From: Eubacteriaceae bacterium
GTDB taxonomy: Bacteria; Bacillota; Clostridia; Eubacteriales; Anaerofustaceae
Assembly: GCA_009782515.1 (NCBI GenBank)
Contig: WRIY01000003.1
Location: 62,001-126,000 of the forward strand
Direction: 5' to 3'
DNA length: 64,000 nucleotides
The notes under the pieces: generated by a model
The model's input: the letters and a program-made list of their open reading frames with translations, nothing else
Database searches by the model: none
Told to the model about the DNA's origin: nothing
Made by a program: the position numbers and the translations under genes
Part shown: positions 4,484-11,476 of the stretch, in pieces
Layout of the letters: each line of letters starts with the position of its first letter
Numbering within the stretch: position 1 is the first letter of the stretch

Positions 4484-5293
4484 CTAGAACTTACCCCCAT
4501 GGCCACCTCTGTCGCTCGAGCTTGAGCTAGAGCTTGATGAGCGTGAGGATCTGTCGTCGTCAGAATCCCTCTTTACCCTTGATGTCGTTGAGTAAAGGTA
4601 GATATCATTTGAATGTGTAACCTTGAAGCTGTTCTTAACAATATAATCGCTGGCATACCTGTTTTCTCTCGCTGTATTCATGGAAACTCTCATTACTGAT
4701 GTTATTATCAGCGCTATGCCCACGCTTGCTATAAGAATATACCAGAAATAGTCTCGAATGGTTTTTGGAGCCTCATAATGCTCATACCCGTTGCTCTGGC
4801 TGTTATTGCCCGGGTACAGTATTTCGTTTCTGCAGAGCTCAGCAAACAGCTTAAAGCAGCTGTAGGCGTCACCATTTTGCAGGTGCGGCATGCATTGGTT
4901 CCAAATTCTATCGATCGCCCTATCATCGATTATTTCATTGCCAGTGCCGTTTGTTACAATATACCAGTCGCGTTCACCCATGTTGATGAACAGCATAACG
5001 CCATTGCGCCTCTCGCTAATGCCATACTCGTACTGATCGTACATATTGTTTGCATAATCCCTAACAGTGCCGGTTATTGACATAACAGTCACAACTGAAA
5101 TATCTACCTGCGTTTCTTCAGCGTATGAAAGAAATAAACTATTAAGCGATTCTGCTTCGCTTGTGGTGAGCAGGTTTGCCCTGTCGACTACATGCGGAAT
5201 AGATGCGTTAGGCCCGCTTGAGCCATATACGCTTGTCATTAGCAATAAAACTAATGCCACAATAGCGGATGCAGCAGCTAAGTTTTTTTTCAT
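4484..5293 (-). CDS. TPM-domain membrane-anchored protein (YgcG/Psb32-like)
   Basis: The 269-residue protein has an N-terminal signal or anchor segment (about 5-24), a TPM domain (about 33-155) beginning VVDRANLLTTSEAESLNSLF and including RNGVMLFINMGERDWYIVTNG and the acidic DDRAIDRIW, then a second membrane helix (about 183-203). The tail is a run of serines ending in RGGHGGKF, the low-complexity GG-rich tail seen in many TPM proteins. The TPM domain would lie outside the cytoplasm. TPM proteins are linked to photosystem repair in plants and to envelope quality control or phosphatase-like activity in bacteria; the precise role here is unknown. It lies in the SPFH/zinc-ribbon operon, a recurring association in Clostridia. 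Confidence 0.85.
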   Translation of the reverse strand: MKKNLAAASAIVALVLLLMTSVYGSSGPNASIPHVVDRANLLTTSEAESLNSLFLSYAEETQVDISVVTVMSITGTVRDYANNMYDQYEYGISERRNGVMLFINMGERDWYIVTNGTGNEIIDDRAIDRIWNQCMPHLQNGDAYSCFKLFAELCRNEILYPGNNSQSNGYEHYEAPKTIRDYFWYILIASVGIALIITSVMRVSMNTARENRYASDYIVKNSFKVTHSNDIYLYSTTSRVKRDSDDDRSSRSSSSSSSSSDRGGHGGKF

Positions 5294-5442
5294 TTGGTAA
5301 AGTCACTCAGGAGGCAGCCATTGCTCAATTTGATGTGATACAGCTGCCTCTCCCTTTGTTTAGTTGCAGTATGGCTTTTTGTTGGCTTGCTTCAAAGGCT
5401 GTATACATAGCAAGCCCCAATATGGCAGACAGCATGCCTTTT

Positions 5443-6513
5443 TCATATTAGCAATGAGGCAACAAACGTTGCAATAGCTGTGAATGCTGCACTCAGCCCG
5501 ATTAGAAACATTAAGTATCTTGCATTATCTATTGGAAGCTTTCCAACAAACTTGCCTGTTTGCCCATTCATGGCATAATGGAAGTCTTCGCCATTATATT
5601 TAACGCTGAGCATCCACACCGGAAGAAGCGCATACCTTGTCTGTGCCTGTTGAAGCTGAACAGATGATGACTCTTCAGTAACGCCGCTGTATCCAGAGCA
5701 TGTCGATGCCAATTGCTGAATTGTTGAGCGCGTTATCCGCTCATTTGCTTTCGGCTGGCACTCTTCAACATCCTCATCATATCTGTCAGCAAAGTAGCCA
5801 GATAGATATGATGTCTTAAATTCCTTTATATCTACATACCTATATGGCTCAATGGCTTGCATGTATGCATCATCTGCTTGCTTTGAAGCATCTACCGGCA
5901 CATCTTCAAAGGAAATGTTGCCCGAGCGTTTCAAGGCATAATGCCTTGTTTCAGTGTAGCGGTAATTTTTATCAGACCAGGATCTTGATGTTGTACCCCT
6001 AAATGTGGCATTAGCCTTTGCACTGCAGCCAAACAGCCAGAAGGGCACATAAATGCCCTTGATCTCGCTAATGGTGTTTTGGGACTTAAACATTGGCGGC
6101 AAAAGGGGTTTATTTGAGAAGAATTTTTCAAATGCCTCTGTTGCCTGCTTTTTGTTAAGCTTAAAGGGGATAATGCAGTCAGGCTTAAGCATGCCGGATA
6201 TATTTTTTGTATATATAGCCGGATTGCCGCAAAAAGGGCAGCTCGAGGCTGCTGTGGTTGCCTGTGTGACAATTTCTCCTCCGCAAGAAGGGCAGCTATA
6301 GGCCACAAGCTCTTCTAGCTCGCTTTCAAGCCACTCATTTTCATTGTCTTCCTCAGGCCAGTCAAACGAATCTTTTTCATCGCCCTCCATATATGAGTTC
6401 ATTGCCTCAACATCAAACTCATTGCCGCAGGAATCACAAAATAGCTTCTGTCGTGATGAATCAAATCTTAGCGCTGCGCCGCAGCTTGGGCATTTATATT
6501 CAACAACAGCCAT
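5443..6513 (-). CDS. TFIIB-type zinc-ribbon protein with C-terminal membrane helix
   Basis: This 356-residue protein begins with a zinc ribbon (YKCPSCGAAL ... LFCDSCGNEF) and carries a second near residue 74 (YSCPSCGGEI ... SSCPFCGNPA). The middle region includes KPDCIIPFKLNKKQATEAF and IKGIYVPFWLFGCSAKANATF, conserved in the TFIIB-type zinc-ribbon family of Firmicutes. One hydrophobic segment ends the protein (about 333-355), so the ribbons would face the cytoplasm at the membrane. Function is not established for the family. It starts 11 bases after the SPFH gene stop, so the two are cotranscribed and probably act together. Confidence 0.82.
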   Translation of the reverse strand: MAVVEYKCPSCGAALRFDSSRQKLFCDSCGNEFDVEAMNSYMEGDEKDSFDWPEEDNENEWLESELEELVAYSCPSCGGEIVTQATTAASSCPFCGNPAIYTKNISGMLKPDCIIPFKLNKKQATEAFEKFFSNKPLLPPMFKSQNTISEIKGIYVPFWLFGCSAKANATFRGTTSRSWSDKNYRYTETRHYALKRSGNISFEDVPVDASKQADDAYMQAIEPYRYVDIKEFKTSYLSGYFADRYDEDVEECQPKANERITRSTIQQLASTCSGYSGVTEESSSVQLQQAQTRYALLPVWMLSVKYNGEDFHYAMNGQTGKFVGKLPIDNARYLMFLIGLSAAFTAIATFVASLLI

Positions 6514-6524
6514 TAAACACCCCT

Positions 6525-7823
6525 TTAGCTATTTGTTGCGAATGGTTTGCCGCACTCAGGGCAGAACTTTGGCGGCGCTTGCCCTTCAGGCAGCTCCCAA
6601 CCGCAGCTTTCGCACTTAAGCGCAACAATCTCAGGTTTTGGCTCTCCGCATTCCGCGCAGAATTTGCCTGTATTGGATGTATTGCAGCGAGGGCATTCCC
6701 AAGTTCCAGCCGCAGCTGGCTTTGGCTTTCCGCAGGCTTTGCAGAAGTTGCCGGTATTGGCCTCTCCGCAGCTGCAAATCCATTCTCCAGCTTTTGTGGC
6801 TTCCTGGGCTTTTTGCGCATTAGCCATTTCAAACAGGTTGGAAGCGTTTGCGCCGCCGGAGCTTTGTGCCATGTTTAGGCCAACAAACCCTGACATAGCC
6901 CCGCCTTCGTTCTCTGCTGCTTTCTTCATCGCATCAGCTTGGGCTTCAATGAGTGTAGCGCCGGCCAGGCCCGGATCTCTAAGCGCAGAGCTCTTTTGAA
7001 GCTGCTTGATCATATCTTCATCCTCTTTTGGCGCTGTAATGGAATTTATGCTCAAAGATGAAATAGCCAAACCTCTTGAATCGCTCCATTTTGGAGAAAG
7101 AATTTCGCTTAAGGCCTGTGTTAGCTCAAATGTTTGTCCGGGAAGCGAACTATAGCGGATGCCCTGATCAGACAGCTTGGCAAATGCAGGCTGCAGCGCC
7201 GTAAGCATTTCTGCCCTAAGCGTGCTCTCTATTTGCGAAGTTGTAAATTCATTCTCAAAATTGCCGCACACATTTTTGTAAAAAAGCATAGGGTCGATTA
7301 GCCGATAAGAAAACTCGCCGTTTAAACGAAGCGATATATCAACATCAAGGTTTATGTTTCTGTCAACAACCCTAAATGGTATTGGATTTTGGGTCCCGTA
7401 TTTATTGCCGTATACTTCTTTTGTGTTAAAGAAATATATCCTTTGGTCTTTGCCTGGCTCTCCGCCAAATCCGATCCTTTGGCCGATTGACTGGAATGTG
7501 CCCAAAATTCCCTTGCCCAGCCCTCCGTAAAATATGCTGGGCTCAGAGGATGTGTCGTATAAGAATTCGCCAGCCTCTGCGCATAAGTCAACTATGGCAC
7601 CTTGGTCAACAATCATCATGCACTGGCCTTCATTGACTGCTACGATTGAGCCATTTGAAATAATGTTTTCGCTTCCTCTTTTATTCGAAGAGCGCTTTCC
7701 GGCCCGTTTTTGGCCTTTCGTTGCCAAAACGTTTGCCGGCATCGAAGTGCAGTAGAAATAGTCGCGCCATTCGTCAGCAAGAGTTCCGCCAATTGCTCCT
7801 GCTACAGCTTTAATTAGTCCCAT
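6525..7823 (-). CDS. SPFH-domain protein with C-terminal zinc ribbons (virion-core-like)
   Basis: The 432-residue protein has an SPFH/band-7 core of about 300 residues, recognisable as the virion-core-like subfamily: IKAVAGAIGGTLADEWRDYF at the N-terminus, then FYGGLGKGILGTF and PIPFRVVDRNINLDVDISL. Three zinc ribbons follow in the last 90 residues, with cysteine pairs in WICSCGE, FCKACGK, WECPRCN, FCAECGE, KCESCGW and FCPECGK. SPFH proteins form membrane-associated oligomers. It heads the operon SPFH, zinc-ribbon, TPM, J-domain. AGGGA lies eight bases before the ATG. A 9-base inverted repeat sits directly upstream in the leader. Confidence 0.85.
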   Translation of the reverse strand: MGLIKAVAGAIGGTLADEWRDYFYCTSMPANVLATKGQKRAGKRSSNKRGSENIISNGSIVAVNEGQCMMIVDQGAIVDLCAEAGEFLYDTSSEPSIFYGGLGKGILGTFQSIGQRIGFGGEPGKDQRIYFFNTKEVYGNKYGTQNPIPFRVVDRNINLDVDISLRLNGEFSYRLIDPMLFYKNVCGNFENEFTTSQIESTLRAEMLTALQPAFAKLSDQGIRYSSLPGQTFELTQALSEILSPKWSDSRGLAISSLSINSITAPKEDEDMIKQLQKSSALRDPGLAGATLIEAQADAMKKAAENEGGAMSGFVGLNMAQSSGGANASNLFEMANAQKAQEATKAGEWICSCGEANTGNFCKACGKPKPAAAGTWECPRCNTSNTGKFCAECGEPKPEIVALKCESCGWELPEGQAPPKFCPECGKPFATNS

Positions 7824-9747: not shown

Positions 9748-9800
9748 GCCAAAACAGCCTTGTTGCCATCACTGGCAGCAAGCTGTTTTGGCGCTTTTTT
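9748..9800 (+). terminator. Strong rho-independent terminator after the SDR gene
   Basis: GCCAAAACAGC at 9748 and GCTGTTTTGGC ending at 9792 form an 11-base stem extended inward by TTGTTGCC / GGCAGCAA, followed by GCTTTTTT. Confidence 0.9.
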
Positions 9801-9880
9801 ATATGCTTTTTGCGCAGTGCCAGGCATTTCTTTTTGTGGTTGAATTTATCATAGCCAAATAGCATGGCTGGGAGGCGAAA

Positions 9881-11476
9881 ATGGACAGCGATTACTTTGA
9901 AAACACAAACATAAGGCTTCTCAAGCTGAGCGCCTTGGGCGATCCGCTTGAGAACATAGCTAAAACAATAGACTTTGAGGCTTTTAGGCCACTGCTTAAC
10001 TCTGTTTTCGGGTTTGTTCCCGGAAGGAATGGATATCCTGGCTATGATTTTATTATGGTTCTGAAAATAATCGTTTTGCAGCATCTGTACAGCATCCCTG
10101 ATGATCAAATAGAATTTGAGCTATATGATCGCCTGAGCTTTGCGCGCTTCATCGGGCTTAGCCAAAATGGCAATGCGCCAAGCGAAACAGAAATGCTTTT
10201 GTATCGGGAGCTGCTGCAAAACAGCGGGAGCCAAAGAGAAATTCTTGGCAGAATCGACGTGATGCTTGAGGCTAGCCCTGCTGAGCAGAAAAAAGGGGAC
10301 GCCGTCGAAGGCTATGCTGATGATAAGCCATCTGAACAGCCTTCACCCCAAAGCAAGGCCGTAGAGCTTGAGCGCTGCGCATGCTATGATGAAAAATTGG
10401 GATGCGAAGCAGCAAGATCAGTTGCGCCAAAAGGTTGGCGATCCAGTGGCGGCGCTTACTGGATCATGCAAAGCGGAGCATATCCAGCTACTATAGATTT
10501 TCATATAATTTCGCCTGACAGCAGCGCTCGGGTTGGGTATGTGTCTCCAATGTCCTATGTGTCATCTGATCCAGGCAATATGGTGTTTGAGGGGCAATGG
10601 GATTCAGCGACTGTTGCTATTGTTAAAAACTGCCAAAGTGCAGAGATGTATGCCTACAACTATTTCAAGGAATACACAGGCTTTGATGCAAAGATCGTTG
10701 ATGTAGCATACCCTGAAGGCAGCTTGGCAGAAACGCTAAAGCAGTATTTGCATGGCAGGGAGCAGGAAATGCAAAGCTACCACATGCAGTGTGCTCCGAT
10801 GCTCGCTGCCCAGAATGCCCAAATGGAATATGAGCTTGGCCTTGACTGCGCCATTCTTACGCTTAGCTTTGCATTCGAAGGCGAGCCTTATAAGGCCAGG
10901 GTGCTTGCCAGCATATGCTCATCACTCTTAACAAATACCCAGCATCTGCCATTAGTCGGGGCTGTCAGCAAACAGACGCTCAATTGGGATACTTCGCCTC
11001 TTGGGTTCAACTACTGCTTTGCAAGGGAGAAAGAGTTTGAAAAATACGAGTTCGCTGCAGATATATTCTTTGCAAACAAGATCATCAACGAGCAGTGGGC
11101 AAACGCAGTGAAGCATTCTTCGAGCCGAATATTCAGCCAGCAGATGGAATGGACAATGCAGAGGCTGCAAAGCCAGCAGCAGCACATGCAAAAGATTGGC
11201 GCTGAATATGTAGCGCAAAGCTCCCGAAGCTATGATAGCGCCTCATCAGTATTCAATCGCGCATCTGAAGCTAACAGCAGAGTAATGGATGGCTGGACCA
11301 ATGTAATTACAGACAGGGAGTACTACGAAGGCCCCGATGGAGGGCCTGTGCTGCTGGACAGCAGATACTCCCATACATATGCTGATGGCAAGGGCAGCTT
11401 TATACAATCCGAGAGCATGCTCAACTTGCCAAGCGAATGGTCTGAAGTTGCCAGCAAGGGCCCTATGTGGCCTTAG
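9881..11476 (+). CDS. Fusion: IS5-type transposase N-terminal domain + uncharacterised C-terminal domain
   Basis: The 531-residue protein has two unrelated parts. Residues about 16-118 match the N-terminal (DUF772) domain of IS5/IS1182 transposases: LGDPLENIAKTIDFEAFRPL, YDFIMVLKIIVLQHLY and YDRLSFARFIGLS follow the family pattern. The DDE catalytic domain that should come next is absent. After a charged, Pro/Ser-rich linker (about 128-183), residues about 184-530 form a region with GWRSSGGAYWIMQSG, PDSSARVGYVSPMSYV and a C-terminal REYYEGPDGGP...YSHTYADGKG segment. I associate this region with uncharacterised Clostridia proteins that often carry zinc ribbons instead; that association is from memory. 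A perfect GGGAGG site lies five bases before the ATG and the frame is uninterrupted, so it is probably expressed. No terminal inverted repeats of an insertion sequence were noticed. Function unknown; domestication is an inference. Confidence 0.7.
   Translation: MDSDYFENTNIRLLKLSALGDPLENIAKTIDFEAFRPLLNSVFGFVPGRNGYPGYDFIMVLKIIVLQHLYSIPDDQIEFELYDRLSFARFIGLSQNGNAPSETEMLLYRELLQNSGSQREILGRIDVMLEASPAEQKKGDAVEGYADDKPSEQPSPQSKAVELERCACYDEKLGCEAARSVAPKGWRSSGGAYWIMQSGAYPATIDFHIISPDSSARVGYVSPMSYVSSDPGNMVFEGQWDSATVAIVKNCQSAEMYAYNYFKEYTGFDAKIVDVAYPEGSLAETLKQYLHGREQEMQSYHMQCAPMLAAQNAQMEYELGLDCAILTLSFAFEGEPYKARVLASICSSLLTNTQHLPLVGAVSKQTLNWDTSPLGFNYCFAREKEFEKYEFAADIFFANKIINEQWANAVKHSSSRIFSQQMEWTMQRLQSQQQHMQKIGAEYVAQSSRSYDSASSVFNRASEANSRVMDGWTNVITDREYYEGPDGGPVLLDSRYSHTYADGKGSFIQSESMLNLPSEWSEVASKGPMWP

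Follow-up and report, generated by a model that had tools for sequence, protein, structure and literature searches.

The 64,000-nucleotide stretch of a Eubacteriaceae bacterium genome analyzed here (the window) contains a gene of composite make-up among genes that we take, by reading, to be uvrC, obgE, rapZ, yvcK, ackA, plsX, smc and ftsY; this gene content is suggestive of a clostridial Firmicute. The gene is a single open frame without internal stops and has a good ribosome binding site, as the preliminary description had stated (Table 1). Its neighbors are an SDR gene, which terminates in a hairpin followed by a run of T, on one side, and an ABC sugar-transporter operon on the other. The terminator-like stem of the hairpin lies at positions 9759-9782, and the number of such sites in the window is not above that in shuffled sequences. 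The hairpin is the likely terminator of the SDR gene, and thus the composite gene probably has its own promoter, located within about positions 9800-9870. An internal start near residue 128 was also considered and rejected, since no good ribosome binding site is visible there.

Table 1. Features of the chimeric gene, its surroundings and related sequences
Feature	Location	Strand	Basis or remark
Hairpin with arms GCCAAAACAGC/GCTGTTTTGGC, then T-rich stretch	9748..9792	+	inverted repeat and sequence
Ribosome binding site GGGAGG	9870..9875	+	5 nt upstream of ATG, read from sequence
Chimeric gene	9881..11476	+	531 aa, ATG start, intact frame
IS5 (IS5_4 type) transposase N-terminus, natural start included	residues 1-130 = 9881..10270	+	profile matches, tblastn, tree
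Pfam DUF772 match	residues 51-121 = 10031..10243	+	profile search
Hydrophilic Pro/Ser/Glu linker, the junction	residues 131-159 = 10271..10357	+	no match to relative before residue 160
Domain common to zinc-ribbon/TM protein of Eggerthellaceae MAG (L002:4419-6104)	residues 160-531 = 10358..11473	+	BLASTP
Other DUF772 matches, same genome	IS1182-like frame on C13; truncated frame on C48; weak match on C1
Free-standing DUF772 proteins, about 155 aa, no DDE domain	L058:2596-3087, L059:2542-3042, L060:2152-2673; also L075, L077		several Clostridia

The N-terminal part of the encoded protein is a fragment of an IS5 transposase. In a search with the whole protein, the Pfam domain DUF772 scores 46.3 bits over residues 51-121 (cut-off 23.1, E 4.3e-12), and with residues 1-130 alone it reaches E 3.7e-13, while the NCBIfam model NF033581 (IS5_4 transposase) aligns its positions 4-123 of 285 with residues 25-145 (E 5.3e-13). 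The NF033581 score of 49 bits is well under the full-length cut-off of 140 because the protein carries the fragment only. The tblastn alignments to IS5 transposases of plasmids and Clostridia begin at the start of the transposases themselves and mostly end at residues 129-132. The transposase identity proposed in the preliminary description is therefore confirmed, but the extent given there, residues 16-118, has to be widened to about residue 6 to 130, possibly 145.

The fragment shares with IS5 family transposases (NF033581, Pfam DUF772 plus DDE) the N-terminal start and the motifs GDPLE...DFE.FRP, LKI.VLQ.LYS...DDQ.E and DRLSF.RF.GL. In contrast to these enzymes, it is devoid of the DDE nuclease domain, as had been recognized before: no DDE family was matched in the Pfam and NCBIfam searches, the region of the first catalytic Asp is not preserved, the PDA.T.W motif is lost, and the frame runs on into an unrelated domain. 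Identity to any sampled transposase does not exceed 44%, and the closest ones, IS5 transposases of plasmids, are 41-44% identical over residues 1-130. In the phylogenetic tree the sequence falls among IS5_4-type transposases, in an unsupported position; its branch is long, with 1.62 changes per column.

An IS5 element would be expected to show terminal inverted repeats and several copies, whereas no terminal inverted repeat was recognized at the ends of the fragment, which is an immobile single copy in an intact frame. The same genome yielded neither a second copy of this transposase type nor a loose DDE half to match, and therefore the fragment does not represent a live element; a recent insertion is likewise ruled out by the single copy, the missing IS ends and DDE domain, and the strong divergence. 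Three other DUF772 matches in the genome, two of them over the cut-off, are all of other types. An ORF adjoining the IS1182-like gene among them (L005:5-337, forward strand) contains repeated 'PRTRGDGP / SPHTRGWT' peptides and is probably a translated CRISPR array.

Searched separately, the C-terminal part matches no known family: residues 184-531 alone have no Pfam or NCBIfam match, residues 160-531 have none in Pfam, NCBIfam or PDB, and a PDB search with the entire protein gave no match. The earlier reading of this part as an uncharacterized domain holds with regard to families, but the domain is not an orphan. It has one clear relative of similar length: by BLASTP, residues 160-530 are 42% identical (156/372, E 7e-96) to a 561-aa protein encoded in single copy in the Eggerthellaceae MAG Nt197P3bin52, and two cysteines and many Trp and Gly residues are conserved between them. 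Nt197P3bin122, a bin of the same series, is described as originating from a metagenome of termite gut (PMC9386147).

In the relative, the shared domain is preceded by a zinc ribbon of CxxC...CxxC type (CANCG...CMNCG; E 0.002 against Pfam, under the cut-off), a Pro/Gln-rich linker and a membrane helix, whereas the window protein has the transposase N-terminus in their place, with no zinc ribbon detected by profile search and no membrane helix predicted from hydropathy. The hydropathy maximum of the window protein, 1.29, lies inside DUF772, in the helix at residues 54-72; this helix is an unlikely membrane anchor, given 1.19-1.26 in soluble transposases and 2.65 for the anchor of the relative.

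A single-sequence structure model was unusable (pLDDT 34.7), and a model of the C-terminal domain built from two sequences was poor (43.9). A Foldseek search with the latter listed PsbP/MTC28/DcrB-like entries, none below E 0.001, which gives only a hint of such a likeness. A clostridial contig encodes, at its end, 144 C-terminal residues weakly similar to the end of the fusion protein (L013:1507-1941, reverse strand; E 2e-6), and this piece may be a remote representative of this domain family; L014 (E 0.003) and L015 (E 0.007) gave weaker matches.

The fusion is known from one assembly. Its occurrence in related genomes, which the preliminary description had raised, was not observed: no second fusion was found in the 12 other genomes of the family, in 66 genomes of the order, in evenly drawn samples of the class and phylum, or among viral contigs and plasmids. 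A search of one paper library returned nothing on a domesticated DUF772 transposase.

Several Clostridia encode free-standing proteins (L058, L059, L060 and L077 among them) that, like the window protein, have a DUF772-type domain without DDE in an intact frame, but are unfused. They belong to a different DUF772 clade, a separate group with a support of 99/100, which rules out a common clade with the window sequence. The free-standing gene occurs in three species of one genus (g124), and in the two whose neighborhoods were read it occupies the same site, with pepF on one side and an ABC transporter gene on the other; the proteins of these two syntenic species are 64% identical, with dN of 0.28 and saturated dS. 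The free-standing proteins look like conserved, domesticated transposase N-termini. In one clostridial genome such a gene lies about 1.5 kb from an apparent homologue (L060:1-670, reverse strand) of an SPFH gene that is also present in the window, where a cluster of TPM-domain, zinc-ribbon and SPFH(Band 7)-zinc-ribbon genes (4484-7823, reverse strand) precedes the fusion gene by about 2 kb. The proximity of DUF772 and SPFH genes in the two genomes may be due to chance.

Taken together, we consider it fairly probable that, in a rare protein, the N-terminus of an IS5 transposase has taken the place of the zinc ribbon and membrane region, via insertion of an IS and deletion or via recombination. 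If the relative represents the ancestral state, the zinc ribbon, linker and anchor were lost from the window gene and the transposase N-terminus was acquired; we infer this ancestral N-terminus by sequence comparison with a single distant outgroup (Eggerthellaceae versus the apparently clostridial window). According to this scenario, an IS5 element with an IS5_4-type transposase would have entered, by insertion or recombination, the 5' region of a gene encoding a zinc ribbon, linker, membrane helix and outer domain, and a later deletion would have taken out the ribbon and the anchor together with the remaining transposase and its DDE domain. The start codon and first ~130 residues of the transposase would then run in frame, via the hydrophilic linker, into the former outer domain. 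The join is placed between residues 130 and 160, and the linker may retain, up to residue 145, degenerate remains of the first part of the DDE domain. As neither a signal sequence nor a membrane helix remains, the product is expected to be cytoplasmic and would probably carry the C-terminal domain on a helical DUF772 head that is DNA-binding and/or dimerizing and lacks catalytic residues. The insertion-deletion route, expression, the cytoplasmic location and any DNA-binding or regulatory role are what we infer from these comparisons. The graft looks old, judging from its host-like codons, its low identity to transposases and the large-scale loss of the PDxxT/W motif.

The question whether the transposase part is retained by selection was addressed using codon usage, conserved columns and simulation. 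The codon usage of residues 1-130 is host-like, with a CAI of 0.80 compared to 0.68-0.77 for window genes. Among columns at least 90% conserved in 13 transposases, the window sequence retains 19/27 in residues 1-93, 16/23 in residues 51-93 and 2/10 in residues 94-130 (Fisher test for residues 1-93 versus 94-130, P 0.009). Within the DUF772 core (residues 51-93), replacements are more conservative than under neutral mutation (P 0.013). These statistics are based on a small number of columns and a presumed parent sequence, after several regions and thresholds were tried. The central DUF772 helices are conserved and the PDxxT/W motif is mostly lost; the pattern of retained columns (19/27 versus 2/10) indicates that the fragment is no longer under transposase constraint. 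In simulations, a neutral fragment at 44-62% identity keeps an open frame in roughly 2-14% of runs. Codon usage, conservative core replacements and the open frame thus argue for retention of the N-terminal part in a suggestive, though not decisive, manner.

These observations bear on two further explanations. The first is that of a domesticated regulator, in which selection for DNA binding maintains the DUF772 head and the product recognizes specific DNA sequences, its C-terminal domain being sensory or structural. The core helices kept with conservative changes and the intact frame speak for it, and the free-standing DDE-less proteins of other Clostridia indicate that such modules can be kept; however, the PDxxT/W region is lost, no orthologous fusion was found among the genomes, viral contigs and plasmids searched, and the N-terminal frame could be open merely because the start codon of the C-terminal domain lies there. 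We regard this explanation as possible but unlikely. The domesticated DNA-binding module of the preliminary description accordingly stands as a possibility favored by the signs of retention, but one that gains little from the statistics and from a fusion present in one assembly.

The second explanation is a non-functional or marginal chimera, in which the transposase piece supplies only a promoter, ribosome binding site and start codon and the protein is decaying after the loss of its anchor. The restriction of the fusion to a single genome, the loss of the anchor from a domain that looks outer-face in the relative, and the second truncated DUF772 piece in the same genome are in line with such decay, whereas the strong host codon bias of the N-terminal part, the 531 codons that stay open despite large divergence, and the preservation of the C-terminal part, including its cysteines and many Trp/Gly, are not, and we regard this account, too, as possible but unlikely.

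Finally, the possibility that assembly or binning misjoined an IS fragment to the 3' part of another gene, as might be suspected for a fusion seen once in a draft genome of 74 contigs (completeness 94.17%, contamination 1.94%), is very improbable, because the join lies deep within a 127,772-base contig, in frame and at a linker, with matched codon usage and GC3 on both sides (0.484 and 0.489), the IS fragment occurs only once in the assembly and so offers no repeat at which a misjoin could arise, and the IS part is far diverged from every sampled IS.

Fusions of host genes with transposases are well known in eukaryotes. The replacement of a zinc-ribbon and membrane part by a transposase N-terminus proposed here would illustrate clearly how an insertion sequence can create a new bacterial gene, namely by exchanging the N-terminal module of a host protein and, presumably, its location in the cell. 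A broader proposal is that the captured DUF772 domain became the DNA-binding or dimerizing head of a new cytoplasmic protein, that one IS event turned a membrane protein into a potential regulator, and that, together with the free-standing proteins, DUF772 has been recurrently exapted in Clostridia; we put it forward as speculative and rather improbable. If the gene is expressed, it would offer an opportunity to test an IS5 DUF772 domain at work outside transposition.
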